A stretch of DNA of 64,000 nucleotides from Halichondria panicea (Eukaryota > Porifera > Demospongiae > Suberitida > Halichondriidae). The translations under genes and the position numbers were made by a program. Positions 15,784 to 49,142 of the stretch are shown here, one piece after another. Position 1 is the stretch's first letter. Every line of letters begins with the position of its first letter. The DNA is taken from assembly GCF_963675165.1 (NCBI RefSeq), contig NC_087377.1, forward strand, positions 9,193,122-9,257,121, written 5' to 3'. Under the pieces are notes generated by a model that made no database searches, had not been told where the DNA came from, and worked only from the letters and a program-made list of their open reading frames with translations.

Positions 15784-15862
15784 GCAGCCACCAATAGTTA
15801 GTGCTAATGGTACAGAGAGCAAATTACTAATTTTTATACGTGAAAGTGAAGTTAGTATAATC

Positions 15863-27150: not shown

Positions 27151-27404
27151 CTAACTGAACTGCACATGTCCATAAGCAACGTTCCCCTGAGTGTGGGGTT
27201 CTGGCTTAATCTTAATACTGTCCGGCTCTTCATATATGACAGGTGGTTGTCTCATTTCAGTTTCAGTTTGCAGAGTTACTTTCTCAGACCTCCTGTACTT
27301 GTTCACTGCCAGCACAATGAGGACACCAATAGAGACTCCAACAACTAGGGTCGGCAGGAACGTCAGGACAAATGTGAGAGCAATTACAGCTTCTCGGGAC
27401 AAAG
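27151..27404 (-). CDS. Receptor A membrane helix and cytoplasmic tail exon
   Basis: Acceptor TATTTCTAG; phase 1 joins the sushi exon's last base to give Ser. Hydrophobic FLPTLVVGVSIGVLIVLAV is followed by the stop-transfer NKYRRS. Tail tyrosines lie in NKYRR, VIYEEPD and VAYGHV. The last fits the ITIM consensus (I/V/L/S-x-Y-x-x-L/V/I). Nothing like this tail is present in receptor B. Confidence 0.8.
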
Positions 27405-30400
27405 CTAGAAATAGAAGCACGACATGCATCAATTATACAGTAGACTCTCGTTAATCCGGTCACCCTCGGCACATGCAATTTGGCCGCAATAGCGAGGTGG
27501 CTGCATTTCAGATTATAGCCGCGGCTAAATAGCGGTATCGCCTCGAATCTATATTGCACCGCGCCTGTCGTACCTCCTCTGGGCTCGGGCTAGCCTCGAG
27601 ACCAGGCCGATTAAAATACGGCCTGGTCTCTATTGCATGGGTGATAGTGCACATGCAAGAATCTGGGTAACTCGTTATACTTAGTAAACCTTTGTAAAAT
27701 TATACCGTAAACTAGTTTATTTACTAGTTTCTTTCCGTATTAATTTTAACAAATACTTGTCTCCTGTGAAGCTGTGGCTTATGCTCTCTATTGCGTTGTC
27801 AAGAAGATTTGCTGGCTAGCTGTGGCCCTCTATGGTGTTGTCGAGGAGGCTTGCACACTAGTCTGAAGCCAGAAGAAGCTCTCATTTGTACAGAAATAAA
27901 ATCATGACCATCCAACCATCATAGAGGTATGAGAGCCTCTTCTGGTTTCAGACTAGTGTGCAAGCCTTCTCGACAATACCATAGAGTGCCGCAGCTAGCT
28001 AGCTAGGCTATAAAGCACATAGTAGATAATACGTGGACGTCTATGGACTAGCCTATGATTAATTACACATGCAATAGATACCAGGCCGTATTTTAGTCGG
28101 CCTGAATTCGAGGCTAGGCTCGGGCCAGAGGAGGTACAACAGGCTTGCAGTTTTCATCGGCTAAACTACACCCTAAACGACATACAGTATAGCAAGTATA
28201 ATTATTTCGGGGATATAAATGTACTGCGAACATTTATAACCGCAAATTTAAAATCGCATGTATGCATGCATATATACTGCAAATTAAAAGGCTGCATGCT
28301 ATTCCACGAAAATTAAATCCGCGAAAACCATTCTAAAGGCATTTCCGCGAAAATTTATACCCTCGAAATAATTATACTGCTATATCGGCTGTAATAATGT
28401 ATCACATAGTTTGGGGCAGCCAGAACAGACCAGTATATACAGGTGGCCGCATTTCAGGATGAGTTTATACAGCAATGATCCAGCTAGCCAATGAAACTAC
28501 AGTATGTCGAGGTGACCTTAATTCAGAGATTAGCGGACAGTCTACTGTACCCAATTTCTACCATAAAAACAATATTTGGTAATGATTTGCATGGCTATAA
28601 AGTGTGCATGTTGTAACTTCGGGACAATAGGAAAGGTATATCACTGTGTTTGCTGAGTAGCTTTGAAAAAATAATATTATTATCAGCCCAACAAATGATG
28701 ACATATTGCTAGCGTACTCTCATTAATCTGGTCACCCTTAGAACAGTGCTGCACTAGTGGGTAGTCTCAAGCCAGACTCCTCCCCGAGTCTGGCTAGTCT
28801 GAGGGCCAGACCTAATAGCTCGGGGGCAAAATCAAGAGAGCTATAGGATTAGGTCTGGAGACTCCTGCAGCATTTCCGTGTGCTCTAGTGGAATGTGGCC
28901 AGAGCCAATGAAATGCATATCCTATATGTCATGTAATTTTTAACCCAATGAAATGCAAGTATTGCCTCTGTGGAATATTTGGATGCAGCCAATGAAATGA
29001 GAGTATTGCTACATCGACTCTTTTTTTATAACCTTCAATATCACAGCACACGGAAGTGCTGCAAGAGTCTCCAGACCTATTTCTCTCTTCCCACGCCCCC
29101 CTCTGAGAAAAGATCTGGCCCCCAGAATAGAGTCTGGCATAGAGCAACTTTTCTTGTTTATCAGTTTCGCAAAAATGCAATGACATAATCAGATGATGTG
29201 TTATGTTATGTACCTTGTGTCATCACATGAAATTACAAGCGGAAATATGGGCATGGTGACGAGGCTAAAACTGGCCAGCTATTATCTCTACTCTCATAAT
29301 TATACAGATTTAGTGGGTGCTGGCACATCTACGCCCACGTATATGCCCACACACACGTTACTAGAGCTATGAAACTACCTCAGTGCTGGAGAGACCAGGG
29401 GCGTAGGCAGGAATTTGAGGAAGGGGGGGCTGAGCGCCGAAGTTTTCGGTGACCGGAAGCCACACCCCCTAATTAATGGCTCATTGCGCATGTGCAAGAA
29501 ATAGCCACACCTTGCTTCGATTAATAATACTGCTAAAGCTAGCTAGCTAGCTAGCCGTAGCTAGTTGCACTAAAGAATCAAAGTTACTAGTATAGTATAG
29601 CTAGCTCTTGGACATGCTGTTTGTCTGCCACTAATCTATACCAGTATCTAATTCCCAGGCTGAAGACTCATCAGAGAAGGTGGGGCTCTTAGTGTAGTTT
29701 TTGCAGAGAAAGGGGGGGCTGGAGCCCCCAAAGCCCTCCCCCTCCCTACGCCCCTGGAGACACAGATCTTCACAAAATTATACAAACTACTGCACTCCAA
29801 GTATGTAGACGAAAGGATGACGAGAACAGATTTTACAGTTGATTTTCATCCTCTAGTTAAAAGATACGGTGGCCAAGAAGGGTCACCTGCATGCCTTCGC
29901 CTACCGCCACAATGAACTGCGCGCGGATGTTTTGTTAACCCACGCGCTTAATTCTAAACGCTCGCAGTAAACACATTAACCGCGCGCGCGGTTAAACAAA
30001 GAGCCGCCAACAAAATTTAAGACCATGCAGTCTGCACAAGGTCAAAGATCAATCAAACATGTCCTGCAGTCTGCATCGATAGCCAAGGAATACCTTGCGT
30101 TAATTAGAATCCAGATATAATTTATTGACCTTTGACCTTGTGCAGACTGATCTTAAAATTTGTTGGCGGCTCTTTGTCCGTGCAGTGTGTCTCGTACCGC
30201 GATCGTTTATATTTAAGAGCGTACGGTCAACAAAAACTCTGCGCGCTTAGAATTAAAGCGCGCGCTGTTCATTGTGGCGGCAGGTGGAGGCGGATGACCC
30301 TTCTCGGCCACCGTAAAAAGAAGTTCCGTCTCAGTAACCACTGCAGTAGAGCTATGGACTTGATTGATTGTTTGCAGGTGCACTATACAAAGCTCTTCAA

Positions 30401-33400
30401 TATTACAAAGAGCTCTTGTTGTAAAATCCCTGTTATCTATTATGAGAATTTTTGTCATGACACACCCACTAGAGAAAAATCTAGACCGTATATATGGACA
30501 AAGTCAGCTCGTAACTCTGTTCACCTTAGGTAGTTATAGCAGCATGCTAAATATAGACCAAGTCCTGTACGTAGATAGTCAGATCGAACACTTTATCTAA
30601 TGCTACTAGCGTACGTGTACGCTAGAATATAAATTAAGATGTAAGCCTGTAAGACCACGTCTCAAATCGCGTACGAGAAAACTTTTATCGTTGTGGCAGC
30701 TCAATAGAAGAGCCGTTTGTTGGTAGCCTGAAGAGAAGAGATAGGTAACGCTAGAGCTACAGACAGCACTGACAATGTGAGTGGTGAGATCGAACTTCTT
30801 TTGTTAGAGGATGAAAATCAACGGTAAATCTGTTTTCATTATCCTTTCCTCTCTATTTTTGGAGTGCACACTCATGTGGTTATCTGGCTGCATCTTTGCC
30901 GGTAAGATAAGTCAAATTGTCGTGTTGTGTAAATTTGTAACATTGCTCTCTCCCAAAATTATGTAATGGTGGTCGTCCGCTGTTGCCAGGGAGCCGTAGT
31001 AGTTTGTTGCTTCATAATTCTGTGAAGGATCTGTGTCTCTCCTGCAGAATCTTGCGAATCTGATTGGAGACGTCAATTTTTGATATCTGATCAAGAAAAA
31101 TCCCCAGACCATCTCCCTCTCCTATCATATCACGTGCACTCAGGCCCCAGACTATATTTAGCGAGGTGGCTGCAAAGTGGCATGGCCGCGGCTAATATGC
31201 CTCGAATTTAGATTAATATATGGTTCTGTTTCAAGGGGTGTATCCGGCGTGTCCATTAAACATCTGGTTTGGGGCTTACTAGTATACGAAATAGCGAGGT
31301 GACAGGGCAAGTATTGTACAGTAATGATGCCGAACAAAAATGGCCGTTATAATTTATTGAGGTGACCATAGAGCCAGATTAATGAGAAGTATATACAGGG
31401 CATTCTAAGGCTTGTTCACTCCACACTCACATGGTGTAGGTTCACACAGAACAGTTCCACTCCATGTACCGTCGCTCTGGCACTCTCTGGACGGAGATGA
31501 GGTAGATATGAGTTGGTAACCTTGGTTGCAGAAAGATTGTGCAGTGTGATTGGCTCCAGGGACTTTCCCAGTGTAGCACACACTTCCATTACGGATCGTG
31601 ATACCACCAGCAAAACCTTCCATTAGACACACCTCTGAGGTTTGTATTACACTCGTCAGTTCAGCTACACTACACCCTGCAGTGATGTAATTAATGATCT
31701 CCTAATATTCTTATACATATACACAGGAGTGCAATCATGCACTCCTGATATACATAACTCACTTGAGCGGAACGTTCCCATCACATCAAATGTTAGCCCT
31801 CCTTGGTTGAAATGAATAGAATAACAATAATTGGTTTCAGGCTGTATGGACGTTAGTGTAACTGTCAGAGTATCTCTAGCCATGCCATTAGCTGACATCC
31901 AAGTGCTGGTGTTACAAACTCCTGAGGTCACAGCCAAATCTTGGAAACTACTAGGGTCCGGGAGATAAGCGGACACAATAGCATTAGAGTCCACTATAAC
32001 AACTGTCACAGTCACCAACGAAGAAATACTGGCTGGCACTATAAAAACAAAACAACAATTATTTTTTGTTTCAAAACAATCCAACTCACATTTGAAGGGT
32101 GTCACAGATCGTCCACTTCCTATTCCGTTGGAAACTGTCACAGTCACGTTTAAGTCATTGCTGGGAAGACTATCACGTGCGAAGATAGTCTGGTACTGAC
32201 ACAGGGTGGCATTACAGTTGCCTATGGAAACCACTTTTGGATCACCGACGGTTTGTACAGAGTAAGTAACTACAGGAGACAAACCAGGAGCAACCTCGAC
32301 AAAAGTCTGCATGTGGGGAGGGGTTCTCAAGTACTTAAAATCCTATATAGTCGCATGAGGTTTGACAATCACTTACCACTGTTGGGAATGTGATAGTAAG
32401 AGAGTCGAGGCTGTCACCAGAATACACTACCTGTCCACTGACATCACTAGCAAGAGGGGGGGGTGGTTCTGGAGAGTCACTATGCCACACTCATCCCATA
32501 ATTATATATAGCCCTTACTCACCTGTTAAACTTAGCATGACGGGAGTGCTGACGCTTCCAGGTTGTCCAGTACACAAGGCAGCCCTCACCATAACGGAGC
32601 AGCTTTGTCCAGCGGCAGTCCAATCAGAGCACACTCCTGACATGCTGGAGCTGACCGAACAAGAGCCTCCACAATCTGAGACGACATCATATGAGAAGGA
32701 GGTTCCACAGTCGCTAGTTGGCTTCTCCCAGGTTAAAGTGAATGTGGACAAACCAACGTCAGTTACTACCAGGCTAGTGGGGGGAGGGGGCGGATCTGTG
32801 GGGGTGTGTGTGTACCGCAAGTTAGGCAACTAATAGGGATTACATGTACATAATTATTATCAGGACTCGAGTGCATGAATATTCATGCACTCCTGTTATT
32901 ATGTATAGTAACACTGTTTACCTGCTACTCTTAATGTATGGTTTCCAATCGTATCAAGCGGACCATCTCTGAAACATTGAACAGTTTGACCATTCATGGT
33001 CGAGCTGATATTAATTGACAACTGAGATGTAAAACAGTTTGGGGTAACACTGGTGTTCACTGAAGTACCAACACCTTCTATAGCTCCATTGTTACAGGAT
33101 CTCATGGATGTAAAGCGACTGTGGGTCAATGTAACAATATCTCCATTTGCTGGACAGTCAAAGCTAGTCCCTGTCCATTCAGTGACAACTCCACCAGATA
33201 CAGTACAAGTGTACGTCTCCACATCCCCAGGACAGAAACACTCTCTTCCAATGGGGAGGGTGGGGAGCACTAAGGTATCACCGGCTCCTGGGAAACACGG
33301 AAAAGATTAAACTGGCATGCAACGTATGTATAATTATGTAGAGTTGACCATGGTTCAATTCTAAAGGGTTTGGCCAGCTGGGATCGACCAAAGCAAACAG

Positions 33401-33492
33401 CTAGACCTAAGCTTACCATGCACAATCAATGTTGCTCCAAAAATGATAGGTCCGAGTAGATCTAGAGTAAACCACTGAAGATCAGCCACCAT
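27151..33492 (-). CDS. Receptor A: Ig-like/FN3/sushi single-pass receptor
   Basis: Eight exons: 33492-33417, 33287-32922, 32795-32523, 32468-32377, 32306-32090, 32038-31763, 31676-31431, 27404-27151. All borders are GT-AG and all phases agree. Predicted protein: hydrophobic leader (LLGPIIFGATLIVH), a Cys-rich Ig-like domain, an FN3 domain opening with a proline run, two further beta-sandwich exons, a sushi/CCP domain with four Cys, one membrane helix, and a ~50-residue tail ending VAYGHVQFS. Many N-x-S/T sites suggest a glycosylated surface protein. The last intron is 4 kb and full of transposons. The gene is open throughout. It is an inverted near-duplicate of receptor B. The ligand and function are unknown. 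Confidence 0.85.
27591..28116. mobile_element. 526-bp TAGCC-family element, 9-bp duplication
   Basis: Starts TAGCCTCGAGACCAGGCCGA, ends TCGGCCTGAATTCGAGGCTA. Perfect duplication GGCTCGGGC at 27582-27590 and 28117-28125. The pre-insertion site is a palindrome (TACCTCCTCTGG and its inverse). Inside is a long hairpin (about 27814-28004, arms containing GGCTTGCACACTAGTCTGAA). Confidence 0.85.
28188..28384. mobile_element. ~197-bp MITE with TATAGC ends
   Basis: Ends TATAGCAAGTATAATTATTT and AAATAATTATACTGCTATA, with an interior of mirrored GCGAAAATTTATACC-type blocks. Related to 53392-53591 and to a fragment near 41735-41770. Confidence 0.6.
28851..29078. mobile_element. Hairpin element with AGGTCTGGAGACTC arms
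   Basis: Inverted arms AGGTCTGGAGACTCCTGCAG and CTGCAAGAGTCTCCAGACCT enclose repeated AGCCAATGAAATG units. No coding region. Confidence 0.55.
29396..29756. mobile_element. 361-bp MITE with CAGGGGCGTAGG ends
   Basis: Ends CAGGGGCGTAGG / CCTACGCCCCTG with adjoining G- and C-rich blocks. GAGAC is present on both sides (29391-29395, 29757-29761). The ends resemble hAT or Transib MITEs; the 5-bp flank would favour Transib, but the assignment is tentative. Confidence 0.7.
29791..30864. mobile_element. ~1.07-kb inverted-repeat element, interrupted
   Basis: Arms of about 110-120 bp begin TGCACTCCAA (left, 29791) and its inverse (right, about 30864). They share ACAGATTTTACAGTTGATTT and CATCCTCTA blocks. 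The left arm is split by 29865-30315 and resumes after it (AAAAGAAGTTCCGTCTCAG), which matches the right arm. No certain target duplication. Confidence 0.6.
29865..30315. mobile_element. 451-bp element, TACGGTGGCC ends, 6-bp duplication
   Basis: Inverted arms starting TACGGTGGCCAAGAAGGGTC and including GAGCCGCCAACAAAATTT and a GCACAAGGTCAAAG box. AAAAGA flanks both ends (29859-29864, 30316-30321). Inserted in the arm of 29791-30864. The open frames across it are products of its own symmetry. Confidence 0.7.
31145..31390. mobile_element. Degraded pogo-type MITE fragment in receptor A intron
   Basis: Contains AGCGAGGTGGCTGCA, CGCGGCTAATATGCCTCGAAT and a GGTGACCATAGAGCCAGATTAATGA-type right end, all in the order seen in the 14893-15249 subfamily. 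A left-end fragment of the same subfamily is at 28720-28745. Confidence 0.5.
31431..31676 (-). CDS. Receptor A sushi (CCP) exon
   Basis: 246 bases, phase 1 to 1. SVCYTGKVPG, SFCNQGYQL, RECQSDGTW and TVLCEP give the four Cys and the Trp of a sushi domain. Receptor B's counterpart (47856-48032) is clearly more diverged than the other exons. Confidence 0.85.
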
Positions 33493-33865
33493 GATAAATC
33501 GGCCGCTCGTACGCCAACACAGCACTTGCAAAATTGATTTATTTTTGCTACTATATATATAGAGCTCTTGATGTAATGTTCCTATGAGCCAAACGAGACT
33601 TGCAACCAACGTTGTGTTCCGGAGTTAGAGTTAACTTTCCAGCGCTGCCGAAAGTACATAGATCTATATTCAGCCAATTGCATGTATTTCCGGCACAACG
33701 ATCTTCTCTAGAGTATGGAGGCACGATCCAGCTAAGATTAACTTCTAGTAGTAGCTAACTATGTCTACTAGCTGCATGCAAAATATGAAACTCTGTGGTG
33801 TAGCTGTTCCGCTACTAGCCACGCTTTTTTCTCACAAATCTTGATTGAAATTCGACCACGCACAT
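31712..33865 (-). repeat. Inverted duplication arm A (receptor A 5' part)
   Basis: 31712-33290 matches 46236-47790 in reverse, including introns, at roughly 97% or better by eye. 33430-33865 (exon 1 and upstream) matches 42727-43128. In arm A the two blocks are 130 bp apart; in arm B they are separated by 3.1 kb of other sequence. Confidence 0.9.
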
Positions 33866-34705
33866 TGCTTTCAAAACTATCTTGCCACGTGGATAAATCG
33901 AAAGTGCTACTGTGTGAGACGTGTTTCCAGGTACTAGGTGCTTCCATAGATAGTAAATATGGAACGCCAAATCCGCCAACATTTTTGCAATGTAATTCAC
34001 ATGAATAAATTGTGTATCAGAACGTACACAAGAACGTTTGTCAGATCGATTACTAGAACGTTTCTGGAAACGATTATCATTATGTGTGTACACAGACAGA
34101 ACGATTATCAGAACGTACACAACAACGTACGGCCTCGAGGTTAACGTGGTGCTCGAGGCGCAGTACACAAGAACGTTTGTCAGATTTGAGCTAGAACTAG
34201 CCTCGACTCCAGCCCCTTGAATAGTGGGCCTGGTATTTACTGTTGGCGCGTGGGTGGACAATTAATTTATTATTTACCGTATTTATCTCATTGAACGTTA
34301 AAACAGTATTTTATCTTATTGTGGATAAAGAACAGAAAAAAGAAAAAGGAGAGGCTACCTCTTGTATATACTGTATATAGACAGAGACAGCTAAGTAAAA
34401 CATCAGCTCTGTAGATTTATTCATTAACTTGAGGCTCGGATCGGATACACACTCAGCCGACAAGTTAATCTCATAAGAAATTAGTTAAACCTGTGGGTAA
34501 AAAATAAATGTGGATAAGTACAGTGGCTGTGACGTAACATAATGTGAGGACTACTTATTGATTTACACAATAGATTTACCATTGAAAGCACTATCCATTA
34601 ATACACACTCAAGCAACAAGTCCCTCGGATCGGATACACACAAGTCCCTCGGATTGTAAACACATTCAGGCCACACAGTTCTCGGATCAGATACCACGTA
34701 CTTAC

Positions 34706-35101
34706 TCTGTGACCAATTTTCGGCAAATGTCACAACAATACTTCCTTCCAGAGAGAATGGCACTGAACGTCGAACAGACACACCAACACTTTGAAGATGG
34801 CTTCACTCAGAGAAACAAGAGGAGAAATCACCATCACAACACTTCTTTCATCACAACACTTCTTTCAGAGAGAGGTGCACTGGTCCTGTCAAGCTTCACA
34901 TCAATCAAGAAAGGGAGTGTCTGGAAAGCAGATGGACTTGCTCTGGGACTTGCCATAGCCGGTCGGTACGGTACCCACATAAACACCAGCGTACAGACAC
35001 TTCAACGCCTCCAGCTGCTTGTTTTTCAAGACTAGACCTGGTTTTCCAACACAGGATAACGCGTACGCGAGAGCAGAAGAGAAGGTAGCAGCCATATCCA
35101 T
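34706..35101 (-). pseudogene. RecQ-like (SF2) helicase N-terminal fragment
   Basis: From ATG at 35101 the frame reads LVLKNKQLEALKCLYAG (the region before motif I), then VGTVPTGYGKS, an intact Walker A motif. After frame changes it continues FQTLPFLIDVKL, VVMVISPLVSL (motif Ia) and LQSVGVSV. This order fits RecQ/WRN-type superfamily 2 helicases that unwind DNA using ATP. A 17-base tandem duplication and other indels break the frame, and no DEAH, III-VI or RQC parts follow, so it is a non-functional fragment. It ends at a possible donor GTAAGT. It lies wholly within a transposon. The same protein segment is in the element at 45098-45658. Confidence 0.7.
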
Positions 35102-35115
35102 TACACAACTTGGAC

Positions 35116-35584
35116 TAGTCTCATGAATCAGCCGCTGTTCTTTTGGAACCACCGTCTGAGCACTCTTGTCATGAAGTCATTTCAAAATGGAATGTTGATT
35201 GCTCACAAAACCAATGGAATGTAATTAAATTCGTGATCTTACGCCCACACATATTTCCTAATTGTTATACAAATTGCCAAGCGAAGGCATCTCTCTCTAC
35301 TTGTGTTTTGCTGTGGTGCTAAATCTGTGCCCAAGGACCCCTGTTTGCCTTGCTTATGCTTCGTAGCAGCTTCTATGTATGAAGTGTTTACCATGCGTAA
35401 TGCATGCGTAATGATTATCCAAATGCGTTGAGCAAAGTGCAGTTCTTTGCTGCCTCCAAGTTCATCACCTGACTGGACTTCTGCAATTTGATTGGTCAAG
35501 ACGGAATTCTGTCTTGGCACATAAAACGATGACAAGAGTGCTCAGACGGTGGTTCCAAAGAACGGCGGCTGATTCATGAGACTA
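35116..35584. mobile_element. 469-bp MULE-like MITE, 9-bp duplication
   Basis: About 55-bp inverted ends starting TAGTCTCATGAATCAGCCGC. Perfect duplication AACTTGGAC at 35107-35115 and 35585-35593. Inserted immediately upstream of the helicase fragment, inside 34198-35851. Not the same termini as the TAGCC family despite the same duplication length. Confidence 0.85.
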
Positions 35585-36276
35585 AACTTGGACTAGAGTT
35601 CTTTTTTCAATGACATCATTATAAATGAAACGGATATCAATGTTTTACAACTAAATGCGGAATAAGAATACTGATAAATATACTACAATTTACAATTACC
35701 AAGGTTCTTGGTAATTCTGGCGCATGCGTAAACAGATTTCGATTTATATCTGTCTACCCGTTTTGTACTTACCTCGTTTCGCCATAAAGGCTAAAAAAAA
35801 AAAAAAAATGTATACCAGGCCGCCTTTCTCAGCGGCCTGGAATCGAGGCTAAGCTAGAACGTTACTGCTGACAGGCGTTCGCCGCCCTCGGTAGTTATAA
35901 TTATACATGTGAGGTTAAAGGTCATCATAAAAAAGAATATTGGATCATCCTACAATGTGGAGAATATTCTCACTGTATGTGAAGAAGTGCTTACTTGTAT
36001 AAGTGGATGTGTTAGCTGTGGAATTATGAATGAAGGTGAGTTAAACTACATAATTATAGAGGGCAATATGGGATTAATTAGCACCAGTAACAAGCAATGG
36101 CAAGGCCTCTAGCTCTAATTGCAAAAGGCAAAGCCAAGCTCGCCAGTGCTTGTTACGAGTATCCCTGGATGAGTAATAATATTTAATAGGCCAGGCAAAG
36201 TAGATTAATACCGTACTTCTAAATAAGCGCTTTTCCTTTTCGAGACTACCTCGTATACTGCCACGGTACTAAGAAA

Positions 36277-36822
36277 TACTCAGGTACATTAAGGACTAGA
36301 CTGGGACCAGCAATTATTGTTGATTCAGCGAAAACGAAGCTCCGCCCACGATTTTTACTATCAATTGTGCAGTAAAAATGGAGCTTTGCTGCTCTAATCT
36401 TTAGCTCAAATTCCGGAGCATAAAACCTTAGTTTAAGTGTTTACTTTTTAGTGCAGTAGTTAGTTCAAAGCTATATATACAGGCACTACTGTTAGCGCCT
36501 AACAGTGGGATCAGCTAAAGGTGAAATTTTCTAAATAAAGTACTTTTTCAGCTTAATATTTTGCATGTAAAGGCTAATAACTTACTTTTCATTGATCCCA
36601 CTGCTAGGCGCTAACGGTAGTGCCTGTATATAGCTTTGAACTAACTACTGCACTAAAAGGTAAACACTTAAACTAAGGTTTTAGGCTCCGGAATTTGAGC
36701 TAAAGATTGGAGCAGCAAAACTCCATTTTTACTGCACAATTGATAGTAAAAATCGTGGGCGGAGCTTCGTTTTCGCTGAATCAACAATAATTGCTGGTCC
36801 CAGTCCTTAATGTACCTGAGTA
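36277..36822. mobile_element. 546-bp near-perfect palindrome (foldback MITE)
   Basis: Arms of about 230 bp, starting TACTCAGGTACATTAAGGAC, match almost base for base around a ~80-bp centre. The RNA or single strand would form a very long hairpin. I find no convincing target duplication. It may be a young foldback element or an inverted duplication. Confidence 0.75.
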
Positions 36823-38124: not shown

Positions 38125-38226
38125 TCATGTCTTCCTAGATGCTTTTGTTTTGTTGAGAGAGAGTGGGATCTGGTTAACGGTTGAGGAGGACTTGCACCTT
38201 TTCTTACGAGCTGTTTGCTTCACATC
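38125..38226 (-). CDS. Possible terminal exon inside the 7-bp-duplication element
   Basis: A strong acceptor (CTTTTTTTAG) is followed by 33 open codons rich in Lys/Arg (DVKQTARKKRCKSS) and a TGA. It could be the last exon of a protein once encoded by the element that contains it, or chance. No family is recognised. Confidence 0.25.
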   Translation of the reverse strand, partial: DVKQTARKKRCKSSSTVNQIPLSLNKTKASRKT

Positions 38227-39018: not shown

Positions 39019-40490
39019 TGGCTGAAGTACCGCTAAAAGAAAGAATATTTTATAGCCGTACTAAGAAAGCTGCGACTGTATGTGAAGTTAACTCAAAAAA
39101 TCGCCCACCCTCATATACAAGCATTGGGATTTGAAAACCGTAAGCACTGCTTGTTCAGCTATTAGAAATGGTACGTTGAGTCAACGACGTGCTGCTGAAG
39201 AATATGGTATTCCTAGGTCCACACTGGGCGATTACTATCGAGGAAGCACTCTTCCTGGTGCCAAAAGTGGCCCAAACAAGTATCTCTCTGATGCAGAAGA
39301 AGCAGAACTGACCAGGTTCTTGATTAGATGTGCCTCTGTTGGCTTTCTTAAAACCAGAAGTAATGTAATTGCAATTGTGCAAAGAGTGTGCGACCGTAAA
39401 GGAGTCAAGACAGTCACTCATGGTTGGTATGAAAGCTTCACAAAGCGACACTCAGAACTAGTTTTGCGAATTCCTGCTAAATTGTCTGTAGCAAGAGCAA
39501 AAGCCACGGATCCAGAAGTTATTTCGAGTTACTTTGACATGTTGGAGAAGGTTCTAGTAGAGTATGACCTTCTAGACACACCAGCACATATTTTTAATGT
39601 TGACGAGACAGGCATGCCTCTGGACCACCATCCTCCAAAAGTTGTTTGCAAAAAAAAGGAATGAAAAATCCTTCATGTATCACGAGTGGAAAAAAGACCC
39701 AAATAACTGTAGTTGCATGTGTCAGTGCTGCTGGTTACTGTACCCCCGATGGTTATCTGGAATGGGAAGTCCATGCACCCTGACATGGCAGCTGGTGAAG
39801 TTCATGGGACGTTGCATGCTTTCTCTGATAATGGGTGGATTGACACTGAGCTTTTCGACGTCTGGTTTAATAACTTATTTCTACGTTATGCCCCTGCTGT
39901 TCGTCGCTATTGATGGATGGACACAGCACACACTATTCACCTGAAACCATCCGTATTGCAGCAAAGCAAAAAGTTATTCTCTTTATTCTTCCCCCTAATA
40001 CTACGCACCTGTTGCAGCCACTTGATAGGGGATTTTCGGTCCCCTTAAAATTCGCTATAGTCATAAATATTTGGCCCAAAATCCAGGCAAGGTGCTCAGC
40101 AGATTCCCGTTTAGCAGTCTGTTTAAGAAGGCGTGGGTTCAGGCACTAACAATGGTAAATGTTCAGTCCGGATTTGAAACAACAGGAGTGTATCCACTTG
40201 ACAGGAGTAAAATCATGCCACCTGAGTATCTTGAGGAAAGCGTTTTGGAAGAAGATGTGGATGGGTTGCCATTTCTGCCATTGTTGACTCCGTCACGAAA
40301 GTCGTACTCCCGAAAAGAAACTGATGTTCCTAGAAAAGAAACTGATGCTTCCAGAAACTACACATATCCAACTGCTGGAAGACCCCTTAAAGAAATTTTA
40401 ACTTACCCTGAGCCAAGCTTCCAACAATCAAGCCGAGAAAGACATCTAGAGTGGCAACATCTTCAGAAGAAAGACAAAAAATGGAATTAA
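39019..40490 (+). pseudogene. pogo/Tigger-type DDE transposase, frameshifted
   Basis: From MAEVPLKERIF a frameshift leads to a psq-type helix-turn-helix (SQRRAAEEYGIPRSTLGDYY), a CENP-B-type DNA-binding region and the DDE_1 core. The three catalytic acidic residues can be found in IFNVDETGM, LLMDGHSTH and HLLQPLDRG, each in a different frame. The C-terminal part FKKAWVQALTM..SGFETTGVYPLDRSK is typical of pogo-like enzymes. At least four frameshifts and a stop make it inactive as written. It could once have mobilised the pogo-type MITEs seen across the window. The termini of its own element are not identified. Confidence 0.85.
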
Positions 40491-40659
40491 AGGAAGTGGA
40501 TAAAACAAGAGAAATTCCGAAAAAAGCAAAATAAGTACATCAGAGAATTAAAGAAAAGTAAGTCCGAATATTACACGTAGATATATTATTATGATTGCTG
40601 TCACAATACAAATTGTCGTGTTCCTTTATACGTCATGCAGTCGTGTACATGTACATAGA

Positions 40660-42581
40660 TCCTCCGGATAACTGGTCAGATACCCTATGTGATACGTATA
40701 CATTCAGTGGCGGTGGTTTTGAGAGTTCTCCTCTTAGTACATGTGAGTTGTCACAATGTATACATGTATATCTACACATGTGGATTGACCTTCTCAATTA
40801 ATTAGTCCAAGCTCACCCAGTGAAAAGCAGTGGAAAAAGTTCTACAACCACCATCAAATCTACACCGTTTAGGACACATGCTGGTGAGTAATGTGCATGT
40901 GCATGTACATGTATATGTGTGAGTCTCATTGTTGTGTTACTACGTGATTCTGGTGTGCATTTATAGGAGTGAGTGTTCAGACTGGGAGAAAGAAGACAGG
41001 TTTGTATTGTGTACATGCATGTATTGTACTTACTGTGTAAAATGCAGCTCCAGACGACCAAGCTCCTGTCGTTGTCGTTGACCCTAAGAGCCTATAGTGA
41101 AAAGCAGTGAGAAAAATGCTACAAGGAACGTAAAATGTATGCGCGTTGAGATACCTACTGGTGAGTGATGCACATGTATGTGTCTCATTGTTGTATTATT
41201 ACGTGAAAAGAAGGCAGGATTGTATTGTGTACATACATGTTATTGCACCAATAAAATGCAGCTCCAGACGACCAAGCTCCTGTCGTTGTCGTTGACCCTA
41301 AGAGCCCAGTGAAAAGCAGCAGGGAAAGTGCTACATGTACAAGGAATGTCAAATCTACGCGCTCTAGAACACGTGCTGGTGAGTAATGTGCATGTGCATG
41401 TACTTGTATATGTGTGGGTCTCATTGTTTTGTTACCACGTGATTCTGGTGTGCATTTATAGGAGTGAGTGTTCAGACTGGGAGAAAGAAGACAGGTTTGT
41501 ATTGTGTACATGCATGTATTGTACTGACTGTATAAAATGCAGCTCCAGACGACCAAGCTCCTGTTGTTGTCATTGATCCTGAGAGCCCAGTGAAAAGCAG
41601 CGGGGAAAGTGCTGCAAGGAATGTCAAATCTACGCCCTTTAGTACACGTGCTGGTGACTCAAAGGCATATAAGGTAAATAATGTATTACTTGTGCAGTTA
41701 CACTCCAGAGGATAATATCATAGAGTTGTATATCATACAGCGGGTAATTTTCGTGGGGTAAGATATTTGTTATGATCGATGCTCTATGAGCATCTTGTTA
41801 TGTATGTCATTGTATCTGTAGGTACACTTTCAAGTATCCAATGAATCATTGCTTGATGACTCAGAAACAAATCCGTGCATTGGGTTAGTGATCTTGGTCT
41901 CTCTCTTTATGCCCTTCAACGTAATGCTTGGCTGTCAGCAAATCATATTTCTGCTGCAAATATGCTGCTCAGAAGAGAATTCCCTCATCAAAACGGACTT
42001 CAAGATACTATGTACTTGCTCGAAAATCTCCAGTGGAGATCGTCAGCTCATGAATTTGTGCAAATAATTCATATTGAAGGATTTCATTGGCCGTGCTTAT
42101 CAAATAAATTATCATCTGATGCAAGTGAAATACAGCTGTATGACAGTCTTCACATAGAACCTGGCCCTACCATTATTGAACAGTCTTGCACGATTCTCCA
42201 TTGTATGAAAGACCTTTTCACAATCCAAGTTGTGAATGTTCAACTTCAGTATACTGGTGATTCTTGTGGTTTGTTTGCCATCGCTATGGCTTATGATTTA
42301 TGTTCTGGTCGAAACCCTTTGAAAATCAGCTACGATGATGAGAGTTCATCTGGAGCGTTGCTTCAACAATCGTGAACTGTCACGCTTCCCACGAGCTGCA
42401 AAAAAAGGGATTGCCCCAAGACAATAGTCGCAAAACGCAGGTTCCTGTATACTGTAGTTGCCGATATTCTGATGTGGAAGTCACATCGAGGTTTGGGGAT
42501 ATGGCGTCATGTGACAGTTGCAGTAAATGGTACCACCAGGATTGCTCAAAAAACATGGTTTTGTATGTCGTGAGCCAGTAG
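40660..42581 (+). CDS. C48 (Ulp1-like) protease plus PHD-finger protein, probably transposon-borne
   Basis: Downstream of the transposase in the same orientation. It starts with linker exons (a 117-base exon repeated up to four times, 40.8-41.67 kb), then from 41820 a C48 cysteine-protease domain: WVSDLGLSLYALQ, IIHIEGFHWPCLSN (catalytic His), LYDSLHI (Asp), and GDSCGLFAIAMA (catalytic Cys). It ends with a PHD finger with YCSC, MASCDSCSKWYHQDC Zn ligands. There is one frame change near 41875, and the reading passes from protease to PHD through another (about 42372). C48 domains cut SUMO-like conjugates. Fusions like this are frequent in cnidarian and sponge repeats. Exact exon limits, and whether it is intact, are uncertain. 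Confidence 0.6.
40807..41673 (+). repeat. Tandem duplication of a 117-base exon with its introns
   Basis: About four copies, 210-283 bp apart. In the clearest copy the exon is 41262-41378, with an acceptor AAAATGCAG before it and a donor GTGAGT after it. Each encodes APDDQAPVVVVDPKSPVKSS then a basic TRNVKSTRSRTRAG-like end. Phase 1 at both ends means any number of copies keeps the frame. The second copy is shortened. The last exon (41543-41673) reads on to AGDSKAYK before a GTAAAT donor. Confidence 0.75.
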
Positions 42582-42726
42582 TAATAATATATTGTTTTTA
42601 TGTTCTTTTTGTAGTCTATTTTGTCTATTTTGTCTGTGTTACCATATAATCGTTGAGGATTAATTGCTCTTATAATAGTTGGAGCGGTTTGGAATCGAGG
42701 CTAATGATGTTGTAACCTGCAATGGG

Positions 42727-43128
42727 GCGTGGCCGAATTTCAATCCGGTAGATTTGTGAGAAAAAAGCGTGGCTAGAAGCGGAAGAGCTGCACCACAGAG
42801 TTTCATATTTTGCATGCAGCTATAGTAGACATAGCGCTAGTTAGCTACTACTAGAAGTTAATCTTAGCTGGATCGTGCCTCCATACTCTAGAGAAGATCG
42901 TTGTGCCGGAAATACATGCAATTGGCTGAATATATGTACTTTCGGCAGCGCTGGAAAGTTAACTCTAACTCCGGAACACAACGTTGGTTGCAAGTCTTGT
43001 TTGGCTCATAGGAACATCACATCAAGAGCTCTATATAGTAGCAAAAATAAATCAATTTGCAAGTGCTGTGTTGGCGTACAAGCGGCCGATTTATCATGGT
43101 GGCTGATCTTCAGTGGTTTACTCTAGCA
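42727..43128 (+). pseudogene. Orphaned copy of receptor exon 1 and upstream region
   Basis: Matches 33430-33865 in reverse. The ATG at 43099 opens MVADLQWFTL exactly as in receptor A, but the match stops after ten codons and a stop follows (AV then TAA). It is therefore a beheaded relic of receptor B's original 5' end. Its promoter-proximal sequence may still be intact. Confidence 0.8.
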
Positions 43129-43496
43129 GTGTAAAACGTGTGCACTGCTTCATAATATATAATGCTCTAGCTAGTATAGATCTAGTATGGATAATTATCA
43201 AGTAATGGTTAGGACTAGGGCCTAGGGGGGGACAAGTTTAAATCGTGGGAGCATCAGTCTATTATTAGTAACCCCTCTCCACTTCTGAATCTAGTCTCGC
43301 GAGCCACGTCTGCTCGGAGACTACACTTAATCATAGATACTATAAATTCTATGACTTAATTAATCCTCCGACAGGGGTTATAAAAGTTTTTGCAAACAGT
43401 GGCCTAAGTATAGGATAGACTACACCTAAGAGTAGAATAATTATGCGTCTATGTAACCTCCGCGGTTGCGGTTAGCCCGAGGCGCATGGTCTATCT

Positions 43497-43501
<5 letters not shown>

Positions 43502-43533
<32 letters not shown>

Positions 43534-43890
43534 GTAAGTATTATAATACTTATTGCAAGTGAGAAGATAAAAGACAAAAGACAAAACAAAAAAACAAACC
43601 AAGAAAAAACAACAAAAACATGTGACATAATTTTATAAAGTTCCTGGGTGAAAACACATGTTTCAGACCGATAGCACCCGGCCTTCTTGAGTTGCTAGGT
43701 CAATAGTGCCAGTGTCTAAGGCCTTCCATGGTGTGGTGGTGGTGAATGACTTCCTAGAGCCTCTGATGCACATAATCTCTGATCTTATGAGGGAGAAATT
43801 TAGCCTACATCTCATCCAATTCAGAGTTGTGCTGTATGTTTTGTCCTGTTTCTCTGCCAGCATTGAAGCTAGTTTCTTGTAGACAATATG
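43502..43890 (-). mobile_element. 5'-truncated poly(A) retroelement insertion
   Basis: Minus-strand insert ending in a 32-base A tail (the T run at 43501-43532). Perfect 15-bp duplication TGGTCTATCTAACTT at 43487-43501 and 43891-43905. The insert opens in mid-ORF (YKKLASMLAEKQ, LNWMRCRLNFSLIRS) and has a stop and 3' UTR before the tail. These are the hallmarks of target-primed reverse transcription by a non-LTR element. The ORF block matches 24080-24660. Confidence 0.85.
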
Positions 43891-43905
43891 TGGTCTATCT
43901 AACTT

Positions 43906-44639
43906 GGACTTCTGCGCATGCGCGAGGCGTGGTTATAAAAAGCCAGGTTTGGTGCGTAGCAACAGAAATTGAATTTGTGCGAGCTGGACGAGCTGGAGAG
44001 CTGTGAGAGACACCAGTTGACAGAAAAAGACAAGAAGACGGCTTCAAAACAACGAAAAAACTTAGTAGAGCTTGTGAAACGCTTGTTGAAGATACTGGAA
44101 AGAACAGACAAGTAAAAAGAACCTAGAACTGACTGCAACACTACAAGAAGAAGAATGAAGCTCTGTGGTGGAGTGGAGGGGGGTATAGAGCAGACTGGAC
44201 CGGCATGGAACCTTAAAAAAAACTCAATAAAAAGTGTCAAGTGATTGCTGAAGTGTTTTTGATGCTTCCTGGCCCCCCTTGCCCATGCCCAACTGGAAAA
44301 AGCAATACAAAGCAACAGTGGACATGGAAAGAATGGATATTGACTGAACAAACTATTGCATTCTGTGTTTTTTATAATGTTTTTGTCATCTTCTTGTCAC
44401 TTTCACTAAAAATGTCATTCCAACTTTTGAGAACTTCCTGCAAATTATTTGTCACTTCCTGTAGAATATGCGCCCATTTCCTGTAGAATTGGCGCCCATT
44501 TCCTGTAGAAATGTAATCTAATGTTTTTAGCCAATCAGACCAATTACAGATGATGTAATGTAGTCTAATATTAGATGTGCTAGACTTATGTGTAGACCTA
44601 CGTCTCCAGCTAGCTAGTGCAGTCAATCTAGTATTAAAG
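43906..44639. other. Non-coding region upstream of receptor B
   Basis: No gene recognised. It presumably holds the promoter of receptor B as now organised. A short repeated motif (CATTTCCTGTAGAA) occurs at about 44460-44510. Confidence 0.35.
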
Positions 44640-44759
44640 ATGGTGCCGGTGGTAAGTGGCCTATTTTGGGCTAAAATTCGTATAGATTATTTAATGTTCC
44701 ACAGGTAATCACCTACTTACTGTTCATGTTAGGGACATTCTTCCTCGTTCTACAGCCAG
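44640..44759 (+). CDS. Receptor B 5' exons: new signal peptide
   Basis: ATG at 44640 (context AAGATGG), four codons to donor GTAAGT, then acceptor TTCCACAG and 55 bases to donor GTATGT. Together they give MVPVVITYLLFMLGTFFLVLQP, a good signal peptide, ending in phase 1 as exon 3 requires. This replaces the receptor A leader. Confidence 0.6.
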
Positions 44760-47700
44760 GTATGTTGGATGCTGTTTGTGTGTGGTGGTATCAAATTTCA
44801 TGGTGATCAGCATAAGCAACTGCCTTTTTTGTATAGAATCTGTCTAGTTTATAGGCTGAAGTAGCGTTATCCCTAGGCCGAGTTGTATCAAAATAACGCT
44901 AGGTCGCCAACTAGGCGCTAGGTGTGGGGAAGGTTGTATCTTGGCATGGTTGGAATTCGCTCTTTTTTGCTTTTTTGGCGATTTCTAATCGCCAGTAAAA
45001 TGAACGTGGTGTACGTGTGGATATTTCTCCGTAATCTACCGTAAGCACAAATAGCTGTGTGTATAATAATAATACTTGTAGAAAGCTAGCTAGCTAGTAG
45101 CCTCGGTCCCAGGCCGATTTTTTTTAATAGAACAAAGTTGAAAAATACGGCCTGGTATTGATTGTATCTGGGCGTGGCAGGAACCGGAAACCAAAGCAAA
45201 GATTCTTCATACTTTGTTTCCTGTCATATTTCCCCGTATAAGTTTAATACCGTAATTTTGCTCCGCGTATGCTCTTAAGTAACTGAAATCTAGCCATCGA
45301 TTATCTAGCTAGCTAGCTACTGCAAGTTTAAGTTATTCAGATTAACGTATACATTGTCTGCTTCACAAGAAGGCCCCACTCTCATTACAGAACAGGCCCA
45401 GCTCTTGTCAGAAGGAAGAAACGTCTTTGCCATGGTTTTCAACACGGTATGGCAAGTCTCTTGCTTTCACTCACTGCCCTTTGTGATGGACTACAAACTA
45501 GTAGGTAGACCAACACTGCCGGCCCTTGTTGACAGGTGTGTTGTTCTTGCAAATCTCTCTGCTTCTTGTTTTTTGGTTCCTAACCACGCCCAGATACAAT
45601 CAACACCAGGCCTAGTTGTCAGCCTAGCTAGAAACAACTCGGTCTGGAATCGAGGCTAGCTAGCTAGGTACTTAGATCTAGGCGGTAACTATCAAACAAG
45701 AAGGCCTCCCTCAATGAGCATCGACTCCTTCAATACAGCCTCGTGGAATGGCTACTATTACTCTACATTACCAAGAGTAGGTACGAAGAGAAGATCAATA
45801 GCTGTACACAAACACAATCGCACGTGATAAAGTATTGTGCTAGTAAATGTTGTTTTTAGGGGTTTGGGAATTGATAGTTGCGAACAATGACATCATGAGG
45901 CTAGCTAGTCGTTCGCGTTTGGCGTTCAAAGTTGCTCACTGCCCACTGATAGCAGGGGACATTACTTCAATCTAATCACAACGATTACAAATAGTCGAGT
46001 TGATCCTCTTCACTTGCACTCTTTACTCACAGTATAGATTTTTATGTACAGCTATCTGTAGTTAGACACTCTTCTCTTATCAGACGATACAGTCATACTG
46101 GTGAATTAAAAGCCAAATATTTGCTAAACCAAAAATTTTAATTTCCTACATTGTCTCGCAACCGTAGTATTCAATATGTGAAGTGAAATGGTGGTTGGAG
46201 TCTTTCAATTCACATATCTCTAATTTACATGAAACCAGGTGAAGGTACCTTAGTGCTCCCCACCCTCCCCATTGGAAGAGAGTGTTTCTGTCCTGGGGAT
46301 GTGGAGACGTACACTTGTACTGTATCTGGTGGAGGAATCACTGAATGGACAGGGACTAGCTTTGACTGTCCAGCAAATGGAGGTATTGTTACATTGACCC
46401 ACAGTCGCTTTACATCCATAAGATCCTGTAACAATGGAGCTATAGAAGGTGTTGGTACTTTAGTGAACACCAGTGTTACCCCAAACTGTTTTACATCTCA
46501 GTTGTCAATTAATATCAGCTCGACCATGAATGGTCAAACTGTTCAATGTTTCAGAGATGGTCCGCTTGATACGATTGGAAACCATACATTAAGAGTAGCA
46601 GGTAAACAGTGTTACTATACATAATAACAGGAGTGCATGAATATTCATGCACTCGAGTCCTGATAATAATTATGTACATGTAATCCCTATTAGTTGCCTA
46701 ACTTGCGGTACACACACACCCCCACAGATCCGCCCCCTCCCCCCACTAGCCTGGTAGTAACTGACGTTGGTTTGTCCACATTCACTTTAACCTGGGAGAA
46801 GCCAACTAGCGACTGTGGAACCTCCTTCTCATATGATGTCGTCTCAGATTGTGGAGGCTCTTGTTCCAGCATGTCAGGAGTGTGCTCTGATTGGACTGCC
46901 GCTGGACAAAACTGCTCCGTTATGGTGAGGGCTGCCTTGTGTACTGGACAACCTGGAAGCTTCAGCACTCCCGTCATGCTAAGTTTAACAGGTGAGTAAG
47001 GGCTATATATAATTATGGGATGAGTGTGGCATTGTGACTCTCCAGAACCACCCCCCCCTCTTGCTAGTGATGTCAGTGGACAGGTAGTGTATTCTGGTGA
47101 CAGCCTCGACTCTCTTACTATCACATTCCCAACAGTGGTAAGTGATTGTCAAACCCCATGCGACTATATAGGATTTTAAGTACTTGAGAACCCCTCCCCA
47201 CATGCAGAGTCCTGTCGATGTTGCTCCTGCTTTGTCTCCTGTAGTTACTTACTTTGTACAAACCGTCGGTGATCCACAAGGGGTCAGCTGTAATGCCACC
47301 CTGTGTCAGTACCAGACTATCTTCGCACGTGATAGTCTTCCCAGCAATGACTTAAACGTGACTGTGACAGTTTCCAACGGAATAGGAAGTGGACGATCTG
47401 TGACACCCTTCAAATGTGAGTTGGATTGTTTTGAAACAAAAAATAATTGTTGTTTTGTTTTTATAGTGCCAGCCAGTATTTCTTCGTTGGTGACTGTGAC
47501 AGTTGTTATAGTGGGCTCTAATGCTAGTGTGTCCGCTCATCTCCCGGACCCTAGTAGTTTCCAAGATCTGGCTGTGACCGCAGGAGTTTGTAACACCAGC
47601 ACTTGGATGTCAGCTAATGGTATGGCTAGAGATACTCTGACAGTTACACTAACGTCCATACAGCCTGAAACCAATTATTGTTATTCTATTCATTTCAACC

Positions 47701-49142
47701 AAGGAGGGCTAACATTTGATGTGATGGGAACGTTCCGCTCAAGTGAGTTATGTATATCAGGAGTGCATGATTGCACTCCTGTGTATATGTATCCGACTAG
47801 AAAAACATTTGCAATGTGAAAAATTGCTAGGATTGGCCAGGGGTAGGGCTGGTAGATGAATCTGGAACACAGTCTATACTATGTATTGTACATGTTCATG
47901 ACGTTGTAACGGACACTGCACAAACGTTATGTAACCAAGGTTACCAGGTCTCATCCACCTCCTTTCCATCCCGAGTATGTCAGAGCGACAGTAGCTGGAG
48001 TGGAACTATTGTTGAGTGTATAGATTACCCCCGTCAGTGTATAAGTTTATTAAATGATTATGTTCTCTCGGGTGTACTTGTATAATTATATTAATTGTTA
48101 CTCCATGTCTTGTAGCCCTTATAGTTCCGACTTGGGTTATTGTTGTCACTGTATGTGTGGTTATCTTCTTTGCTGTTGGAATTATCGTGGGAATTTTGCT
48201 TACTCTATTCTGTCGGATTTGTGTACATGGAATTCAACAAAGTAAGTTTGTTTGGTAGTCCTACAGACTGCAAGAGTTAAACTACATGGTGATTATTCAT
48301 TGCAGGAAAGTGCGGCACTCTACTGCTGGTTATTCTTCTTATAATCGTGTTTGGCCTTGGAATTGGTATTCTCATTGGCTACTGCTGTGTGAAGAACAAG
48401 AAAGGTACATTGTGTACCCATACAACTGGTCTGCCTAGCTACTACTCAGAGAAAGATGGCAAGGAGCACTTGGAGTCTCAAGAAATAAAGTGAGTAACTA
48501 TATTTTTCTTACTCCTTCAATTTTTGTTACTATAGTCCACCTCCCGTCGACTCCCTGTATGCCGACCCCAACACCATTGAGCATCAGTCAGCCCCGGGCA
48601 CTGAGGACCAGTACGCCATGGTCGATAGAAAGGTCAAAAAGAACACAAAGCCAAAACCAACTCCACCAGAGGCTCTGTATCAGGTACTACTGTTTGCAGT
48701 ATAAAATGCATGCACTTGCTGTACCTTCTAGTTGTAGACTGATGTGTTTGTGTTCATCCTAAAATGTAAATTACCTGATGCTACCCTTAGTGCCTTGACT
48801 CTGTACAGCACTAACATGTACCAACATGTACCAGCCTCACAGCACCAGTATTATGTGTTCCGATGCTTGCTTCGGTCACTACTATTGTATATTATGCACT
48901 ACTGTTTTGTCTTCCTTATCTAGGACCCTAACAAGATTGAGCACGAGACCGCTGCCTCCGGAGATACTTACGCTGTGGTGGACAAGGCCAAGAAGTCCTC
49001 CAAGAAAGAAGGAGGGCCGGACGTGGTTCCACCAGCCAGCGAAGGGGTGAGTAGAGATGGTCTTGTCTGGTATGCAGTTGCTATTTCTATTGTAATGTGC
49101 ATGTACCTTGAATGTGTATGTGTCTAGGAAAGATTAGAGTAG
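44640..49142 (+). CDS. Receptor B: Ig-like/FN3/sushi receptor with tyrosine tail
   Basis: Thirteen exons: 44640-44651, 44705-44759, 46239-46601, 46728-46991, 47046-47137, 47208-47415, 47467-47742, 47856-48032, 48116-48241, 48306-48489, 48536-48683, 48924-49046, 49128-49142. All are GT-AG and all phases agree, ending ERLE-stop. Protein: signal peptide (VITYLLFMLGTFFLVLQ), Cys-rich Ig-like, FN3, two beta-sandwich exons, sushi, one or two membrane helices, then a tail with two similar tyrosine cassettes. The ectodomain is nearly identical to receptor A; the 5' exons and tail are unrelated. Intron 2 holds a TAGCC transposon. Probable glycosylated surface receptor; function inferred only. The first two exons are the least certain. 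Confidence 0.8.
45098..45658. mobile_element. 561-bp TAGCC-family element with helicase fragment
   Basis: Ends TAGCCTCGGTCCCAGGCCGA and GGTCTGGAATCGAGGCTA, with longer matching arms (TGTATCTGGGCGTGG). Duplication GCTAGCTAG at 45089-45097 and 45659-45667; the target is itself a CTAG run, so the duplication is less decisive here. Lies in receptor B intron 2. Confidence 0.75.
45361..45540 (+). pseudogene. RecQ-like helicase fragment, second copy
   Basis: TEQAQLLSEGRNVFAM, then in a shifted frame a Walker A-like TRYGKSL (first Gly replaced by Arg), then FHSLPFVMDYKL. This is the same region of the same kind of helicase as at 34706-35101, though only distantly similar in sequence. Broken by frameshifts and confined to the transposon 45098-45658. 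The long open frame over it is misleading. Confidence 0.6.
46236..47790 (+). repeat. Inverted duplication arm B (receptor B ectodomain)
   Basis: Mirror of 31712-33290. Introns 2 and 5 (the latter between 47415 and 47467) appear identical between arms, while exons carry substitutions and three in-frame length differences. The match ends at about 47790, 50 bp beyond the exon ending at 47742. Confidence 0.9.
48116..48489 (+). CDS. Receptor B membrane-helix exons
   Basis: Exon 48116-48241 encodes VIVVTVCVVIFFAVGIIVGI and basic CRICVHG; it is phase 1 to 1 and can be skipped without a frame change. Exon 48306-48489 encodes a second helix (LLLVILLIIVFGLGIGILIG) and KNKKG. If both are used, the tyrosine tail would lie outside the cell, so they are more likely alternatives. 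Confidence 0.75.
48536..49142 (+). CDS. Receptor B cytoplasmic tail exons
   Basis: Two consecutive exons carry the same layout: SLYADPNTIEH then QYAMVDRKVKK, and LYQDPNKIEH then TYAVVDKAKK. Both are followed by a Pro-rich spacer. YAMV and YAVV could serve as SH2-binding or endocytic tyrosine motifs. They do not meet the strict ITIM pattern, as Asp is at position -2. The final exon adds only ERLE. Confidence 0.75.

Follow-up and report, generated by a model that had tools for sequence, protein, structure and literature searches.

Receptor pairs with matched Ig exons and different tails in a large locus of the sponge Halichondria panicea: a candidate paired-receptor system

The work described here shows that a 64,000-nucleotide stretch of the Halichondria panicea genome (C1:9193122-9257121; the window) holds two predicted receptor genes in opposite orientation, A (minus strand) and B (plus strand), which share a nearly identical N-terminal immunoglobulin-like (Ig-like) domain and differ in their tails. 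We suggest, with a probability of about 0.55, that A and B form one of the pairs of a large receptor locus in which gene conversion keeps the Ig domain of the partners matched, and in which tails of different classes give opposing or distinct signals. This reading is built on the gene models, the matched Ig exons, a loss of synonymous changes restricted to the Ig exon in two gene pairs, three tail classes and an excess of head-to-head neighbours recognized post hoc. Searches covered the 131-Mb assembly (39 contigs); genes outside the window are referred to by number, with the tail type (I, II or III) in brackets where needed.

Receptors A and B, their tails and the inverted repeat

Receptor A is predicted to comprise eight exons (33492-27151, minus; 599 aa) and receptor B 13 exons (44640-49142, plus; 687 aa), and both spliced models, at the spans given in a preliminary description of the window made from its letters, are open throughout with GT-AG borders (Table 1). 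The domain order is signal peptide, Ig-like domain, three FN3-like domains, Sushi, membrane segment and tail, the ectodomain exons being of phase 1-1 save for the second FN3, which is split 1-0/0-1. Sushi scores above the Pfam cut-off in both A and B, and fn3 does so in a relative, the 8990 gene; the fn3 match of the first FN3 copy of B is weak and under the cut-off (E 0.0061). The identity of the third FN3 is supported by its modelled structure (AlphaFold2 mean pLDDT 70.6), for which all four Foldseek matches with E < 0.001 are FnIII (best E 6.7e-4, TMq 0.61–0.67). Within a family alignment of 25 sequences the Ig-like domain has C6, C15, W25, C32, C52, S75, G87 and C92 invariant, and its profile matched 34 PDB entries at E values up to 10, Ig or CD3 chains without exception, albeit weakly (best E 0.015); Pfam ig recognized one of the 25 members (E 0.032), and the AlphaFold2 model, with two near-identical sequences as input, was poor (pLDDT 36.6). 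The conserved C-W-C pattern and the profile search thus lend weak support to an Ig-like N-terminal domain.

The tails fall into three classes, whose tyrosine motifs were compared with the consensus [SIVL]xYxx[ILV] for the immunoreceptor tyrosine-based inhibitory motif (ITIM) and with that for the corresponding activation motif (ITAM). Type I has the membrane segment and tail in one exon, with IYEEP or IYEDP and with [VL]AYGHV, and in A the single ITIM-consensus motif is VAYGHV. The consensus is present in all six complete type I tails read, one of which is that of 9064; a seventh, of 9412, is cut. The 9064 tail (C1:9064725-9064958, minus) is an extra type I tail that adjoins the 9068 gene, has an in-frame stop and is possibly a relic. 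Each of the three type II tails read (9013, 9438 and 9612) carries three ITIM-consensus motifs. Type III has YADP followed by YAMV or YTIV and, where the second tail exon was read, YQDP with YAVV or YTVV; in B the order is YADP..YAMV then YQDP..YAVV, the duplicated tyrosine cassette which the preliminary description had set against VAYGHV in A, and the two tails are indeed unrelated. Both tail exons were read in B, 9105 and 8990 and the first in 9402 and 8953, and an ITIM was found in none of these five (two in the first tail exon only). By its sequence motif, type I would be the ITIM-bearing member of a receptor pair.

The preliminary description was right about the spans and the tails, and other details of its layout need correction: the repeat arms stop before the Sushi exon, B has two transmembrane exons rather than one, and there is an additional inverted piece of 92% identity. 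The two successive transmembrane exons of B (48116-48404) are readable as phase 1-1 cassettes, and so are those of 9105 and 9402, in two ectodomain clades; similar paired membrane exons were placed in all four type II genes modelled. One clear membrane exon is present in 8990 and 8953 (both type III), and a search for a membrane exon in 10034 (type III) found none. Reading through from TM2 into the linker meets a stop in the 9105 relative. Since both exons together would place the tail outside the cell, alternative use of TM1 and TM2 is expected; this, or an odd topology, is likely.

Self-blastn of the window returned one dominant inverted repeat, 97.25% identical over 1565 columns including introns (E=0), and so bore out the description of A and B as inverted copies across the ectodomain. 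Both arms end just short of the Sushi exon, and the signal exons of A and B differ. The orphan copy of the 5' flank of A that lies upstream of B is likely to be a relic of the inverted duplication, followed by a rebuilding of the 5' side of B. Between the arms, introns differ at 2 of 354 sites and exons at 27 of 1203 (p 0.043), with 19 non-synonymous and 4 synonymous codon changes, an exon excess that hints at rapid ectodomain change; the numbers are small, and the pair 9068/9105 (introns 4/276; 17 non-synonymous and 11 synonymous codons) did not repeat it, for which reasons we make no claim of strong positive selection on the arms.

Table 1. Predicted features of receptors A and B and of the inverted repeat (positions within the window)
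Feature	Position	Strand	Basis or remark
A exon 1, start codon and signal peptide	33417..33492	-	open frame, GT donor, phase 0-1
A exon 2, N-terminal Ig-like domain	32922..33287	-	AG-GT, phase 1-1; family alignment; PDB profile matches
A exon 3, FN3 domain 1	32523..32795	-	spliced model
A exons 4 (32377-32468) and 5 (32090-32306), FN3-like domain 2	32090..32468	-	name from position and pattern
A exon 6, FN3 domain 3	31763..32038	-	AlphaFold2 and Foldseek
A exon 7, Sushi domain	31431..31676	-	Pfam PF00084, E 3e-05, above cut-off
A exon 8, transmembrane segment and type I tail (VIYEEP, ITIM-consensus VAYGHV), stop	27151..27404	-	related tails elsewhere
B exons 1 (44640-44651) and 2 (44705-44759), signal peptide	44640..44759	+	AG-GT, phases 0-0, 0-1; hydrophobic N-terminus
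B exon 3, Ig-like domain	46239..46601	+	95% aa identity to A
B exons 4-7 (46728-46991, 47046-47137, 47208-47415, 47467-47742), three FN3-like domains	46728..47742	+	
B exon 8, Sushi, first half shortened	47841..48038	+	Pfam PF00084, E 6.4e-06
B transmembrane exon TM1, phase 1-1 cassette	48116..48241	+	
B transmembrane exon TM2 and linker	48306..48489	+	read-through, or TM2 48306-48404 / linker 48450-48489 (split inferred)
B type III tail: 48536-48683 (YADP, YAMV), 48924-49046 (DP of YQDP, YAVV), 49128-49142 (stop)	48536..49142	+	
A arm of inverted repeat	31713..33277	-	self-blastn
B arm of inverted repeat	46246..47792	+	self-blastn
Orphan copy of A's 5' flank and truncated signal exon, upstream of B	42719..43126	+	92% to 33462-33868 (-)

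Between the receptors lie open reading frames (ORFs; 39092-40490), the first of which encodes a Psq helix-turn-helix (Pfam E 9.5e-11) together with a weakly matching Tc5-like domain, and which are probably a DNA transposon, and a PHD-finger-like ORF (42342-42581; E 7.9e-5, just below the cut-off), possibly part of another mobile element. The window has further repeats (20512-21194 / 62917-63636; 36277-36822; 15857-16456), namely an inverted pair of 88% identity, a large palindrome, and repeats in direct orientation.

Matched Ig exons across the receptor locus

A search of the same genome for further copies, proposed in the preliminary description, returned many tails and more matched pairs on C1, so that the window pair is not unique in the genome. 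There are at least 12 type III tails (C1 8.92–10.03 Mb) and, as sorted by the analyst, at least 23 type I and at least 20 type II tails (C1 8.6–12.9 Mb), these counts being lower bounds and the type II label of weak matches coming from the sorting of tail-search matches; all tail matches listed lie on C1 8.6–12.9 Mb. Ig exons akin to that of A or to two other ectodomain types occur on C1 7.8–13.0 Mb and on C8 0.83–0.91 Mb. Ig exons were compared as DNA in 31 genes, 15 of which are known by Ig exon and tail position only (9470, 9489, 9718, 9792, 9530, 9537, 9587, 8918, 9666, 9609, 9653, 9434, 9499, 8783 and 8790); for these we assumed that the Ig exon joins the closest tail downstream on its own strand, and the label of 8783 is doubtful.

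A type I gene with a matched Ig exon (88–99% DNA identity) lies within 80 kb of 7 of the 12 type III genes. The matched pairs are A/B (98.1%), 9068/9105 (98.8%), 9402(III)/9412(I) (96.9%), 9470/9489 (97.8%) and 10034/10039 (88.1%), all head-to-head, and the tandem pairs 9718/9792 (98.7%) and 9530/9537 (94.0%); for 9470/9489, 9718/9792 and 9530/9537 the Ig exons alone were read. The next-best Ig exon is 57–86% identical for the window pair, 9068/9105, 9402/9412, 9470/9489 and 9718/9792. The type III genes 8918, 8953, 8990 and 9666 have the Ig type of 9537 at 93–96% but lie farther away, and the closest to 9587, at 86–87%, are 8945 (I; compared over 189 bases) and 9653 (II). The seven matched pairs each consist of two receptors with a nearly identical Ig domain, which would be the ligand-binding one. 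When tail labels were shuffled (55 tails, with double matches to one tail merged and C1:10052774, one weak match of a tail search, omitted), a type I neighbour stood head-to-head with 7 of the 12 type III tails where 2.5 were expected (p 0.003, post hoc). Elsewhere in the locus two head-to-head Ig exons, 0.6 kb apart and 95% identical (C1:8787749-8788048, minus, and 8788641-8788919, plus; L049/L050), are followed by tails of type II (doubtful) and type I.

Codon-level comparison (dN/dS for the Ig exons of 15 gene pairs, and for other exons of six combinations and 9402/9412) revealed that similarity may be confined to the Ig exon. In 9402/9412 synonymous changes affect 1 of 106 codons in the Ig exon core and 44 of 315 in three other ectodomain stretches (p 3.3e-5), synonymous divergence (dS) being 0.013 in the Ig exon vs 0.21–0.51 elsewhere in the ectodomain; the block of 93% identity (5165-5546 of stretch L033) is the Ig exon, and outside it 9412 is 85% identical to 8945 (I) vs 81% to its partner. 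Likewise, 9178(I) and 9612(II), about 430 kb apart, differ synonymously in 1 of 120 codons in the Ig exon vs 44 of 368 in other exons (p 3.8e-5). Moreover, 9178 is close to 9068 (dS 0–0.10) save in the Ig exon (dS 0.27), and the Ig exon therefore appears to move on its own. The Ig block of 10034/10039 is 86% identical and the rest 77%. Considering that purifying selection is not expected to clear synonymous changes from one exon only, we read these data as copying of the Ig exon, by gene conversion, between genes with different tails; in 9402/9412 and 9178/9612 conversion would thus keep a putative ligand-binding exon matched.

A possible mechanism, and the alternatives

We propose that gene conversion copies the Ig exon, or the whole arm, between the members of a pair, while the membrane and tail exons stay of different classes. 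Both receptors of a pair would recognize one common ligand. Once it is bound, the ITIMs of the type I tails and of the longer type II tails would be phosphorylated and recruit an SHP-like SH2-SH2-phosphatase, damping the cell, and type III tails would be phosphorylated on YxxP and YxxV and engage SH2 adaptors, giving an opposing or distinct, possibly activating, signal. Through conversion the partners would stay matched to each other while a microbial or allogeneic ligand changes. At C3:8406287-8404573 (minus) lie two SH2 exons and one phosphatase exon in SHP order. As separate observations, SH2-domain exons lie in or beside the receptor locus (C1:8613183-8613344, C1:8635968-8636129 and C1:10829789-10830022; two near type II tails), and tyrosine-phosphatase domains are much expanded, most matches listed being scattered over C4 from 0.04 Mb onward and one (C1:8933949-8934550) falling within the receptor locus.

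Judged from its sequence the locus may well function in the manner of paired receptors, of which it is a candidate member. The recognition and paired-receptor reading of the preliminary description stands in part, with strong sequence support for its paired-receptor side from the seven matched pairs, the homogenized Ig exon in two gene pairs and the ITIM in every complete type I tail read. Several findings weigh against the mechanism proposed above. In none of the five type III tails examined, two of them as far as the first tail exon, was an ITAM found; type III thus differs from a partner with an ITAM in its own tail, and to call it activating is a guess. Of the four gene pairs compared by codon outside the Ig exon, two showed homogenization restricted to that exon, and in the window pair and 9068/9105 recent duplication explains the data equally well and is indistinguishable from conversion, because the whole arm is similar. 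The partners 9530 and 9537 are not each other's best match, 9530 being slightly closer to 8953 (III) and 9537 to 9666 (III); the head-to-head genes 8945(I)/8953(III) have unmatched ectodomains and the head-to-head neighbours 9666/9718 unmatched Ig exons; two of the seven matched pairs are tandem; and the Ig copies of 10034 (III), 9537 (I) and 9609 (II) have no open frame. The head-to-head test was run after the pattern had been seen, and only five of its seven cases are Ig-matched. Finally, type I/type III combinations make up 6 of the 13 reciprocal-best Ig pairs, a borderline result (p 0.06, label shuffling among the 31 genes).

The strongest alternative, which we consider possible though unlikely, is a fast-evolving adhesion family in which segmental duplication, conversion and exon shuffling mix ectodomains with interchangeable, adaptor-docking tails, without any logic of opposing signals. 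FN3 and Sushi stalks are common in adhesion proteins, and random assignment of tails fits the reciprocal-best Ig pairs, 9 of 13 of which differ in tail (p 0.61 by the same shuffling); the idea that best Ig partners always differ in tail was dropped on this result. Near-identical Ig exons also occur in reciprocal-best partners with the same tail, as in 9434/9609 (II, 99.7%) and 8990/9666 (III, 98.4%), 8918/8953 and 9013/9438 being further such partners. Such a family would, however, leave unaccounted for the (post hoc) excess of head-to-head type I/type III neighbours, the homogenization of the Ig exon alone in two gene pairs whose remaining ectodomain has diverged, and, among the tails read, the ITIM consensus that complete type I and II tails retain and type III tails lack.

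Less probable still is an allorecognition complex whose pairs would each be made up of a ligand and its receptor, or of the partners in a heterodimer, as proposed for FF and FcoR of Botryllus, instead of receptors that compete for a single outside ligand. The receptor locus is large and clustered, and Botryllus FcoRs are described as having both Ig and Sushi domains, with tails that bear ITIM, hemITAM or YxxI/L/V, and as being encoded in pairs with fester-family genes in polymorphic haplotypes (PMC12065747); that account, however, treats FF and FcoR as distinct though related molecules of two families, whereas the partners in the sponge locus share nearly the same Ig domain. An assembly artefact that laid two haplotypes of one gene side by side, an outcome the preliminary description had itself allowed for and to which the 97% identity of the arms and their nearly unchanged introns might point, is very improbable and was rejected, given the unrelated tails and most flanks, the differing signal exons, the opposite orientation and the recurrence of the Ig-matched two-tail pattern in six more pairs at varied identity.

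Comparison with known receptor pairs and the sponge context

The proposed conversion-matched pairs have parallels among vertebrates, whose immune receptors are the most familiar case of one outer domain carried on different signalling tails. The CEACAM paired receptors of Xenopus are described as having a ligand-binding N exon in which synonymous changes between putative paired-receptor genes are few or absent, the conservation not extending beyond this exon, and as showing a non-random opposite orientation of transcription (PMC5112662). The sponge genes resemble them in the loss of synonymous changes confined to the putative ligand-binding exon and in opposed orientation, and differ in that their stalks consist of FN3 and Sushi domains and no ITAM is seen in the type III tail, where the activating side of this vertebrate system is described with an ITAM or ITAM-like motif. 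Human SIGLEC11 and SIGLEC16 are described as lying head-to-head at a distance of about 9 kb, their N-terminal exons homogenized by gene conversion, one member being inhibitory and the other activating (PMC5701461). The sponge locus shares with primate Siglec-11/Siglec-16 the head-to-head genes and homogenized N-terminal exons; theirs, by that account, is a single pair with sialic-acid-binding domains and an ITAM-bearing adaptor on the activating member.

Among invertebrates, the FcoRs of Botryllus schlosseri are described as a large clustered family of paired genes with Ig and Sushi domains (PMC12065747), and the sponge locus is like them in clustering, in domains, in its ITIM or YxxV tails and in pairing; in this chordate, in contrast to the one Ig domain on two tails proposed here, FF and FcoR are different molecules. 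The section on FcoRs in that source makes no mention of Ig-exon conversion. The Alr complex of the non-bilaterian Hydractinia resembles the sponge locus in its clustered candidate allorecognition genes with ITAM or ITIM motifs, and the available accounts of it yielded no description of matched pairs with different tails. Hydractinia Alr proteins, unlike the receptors proposed here, are homophilic allodeterminants. The Geodia cydonium adhesion molecule and other sponge Ig proteins are likewise surface proteins with Ig-like domains tied to adhesion and recognition, for which no description of paired tail classes or of clustered inverted pairs was found in the accessible material. No paper on such receptor pairs in sponges was found among the entries listed from the open-licence literature, which is no proof of absence. 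That the DNA comes from an early-branching animal, as the preliminary description supposed, agrees with ten Wnt exon matches, from about four genes, and only three zf-C4 nuclear-receptor DNA-binding exons; Wnt genes together with very few nuclear receptors indicate an animal and fit a sponge. Amphimedon has two nuclear receptors.

We tentatively suggest, as a less probable extension of our reading, that the locus is a sponge recognition complex: dozens of Ig/FN3/Sushi receptors on a single chromosome whose mobile Ig exon moves between inhibitory and non-inhibitory tails, which would make it a germline paired system outside the vertebrates and possibly a self/non-self locus of sponges. Paired receptors whose ligand domains are matched by conversion are taken to signal either an arms race or a tuning of self/non-self recognition; the cases found in the literature, as far as the sources were accessible, are vertebrate. 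Here a three-part signature of matched recognition exon, ITIM vs non-ITIM tail and opposed orientation is repeated in a sponge genome; if it holds true, this logic arose far earlier, or twice, and the receptor locus offers a concrete, sequence-defined candidate for recognition in sponges.

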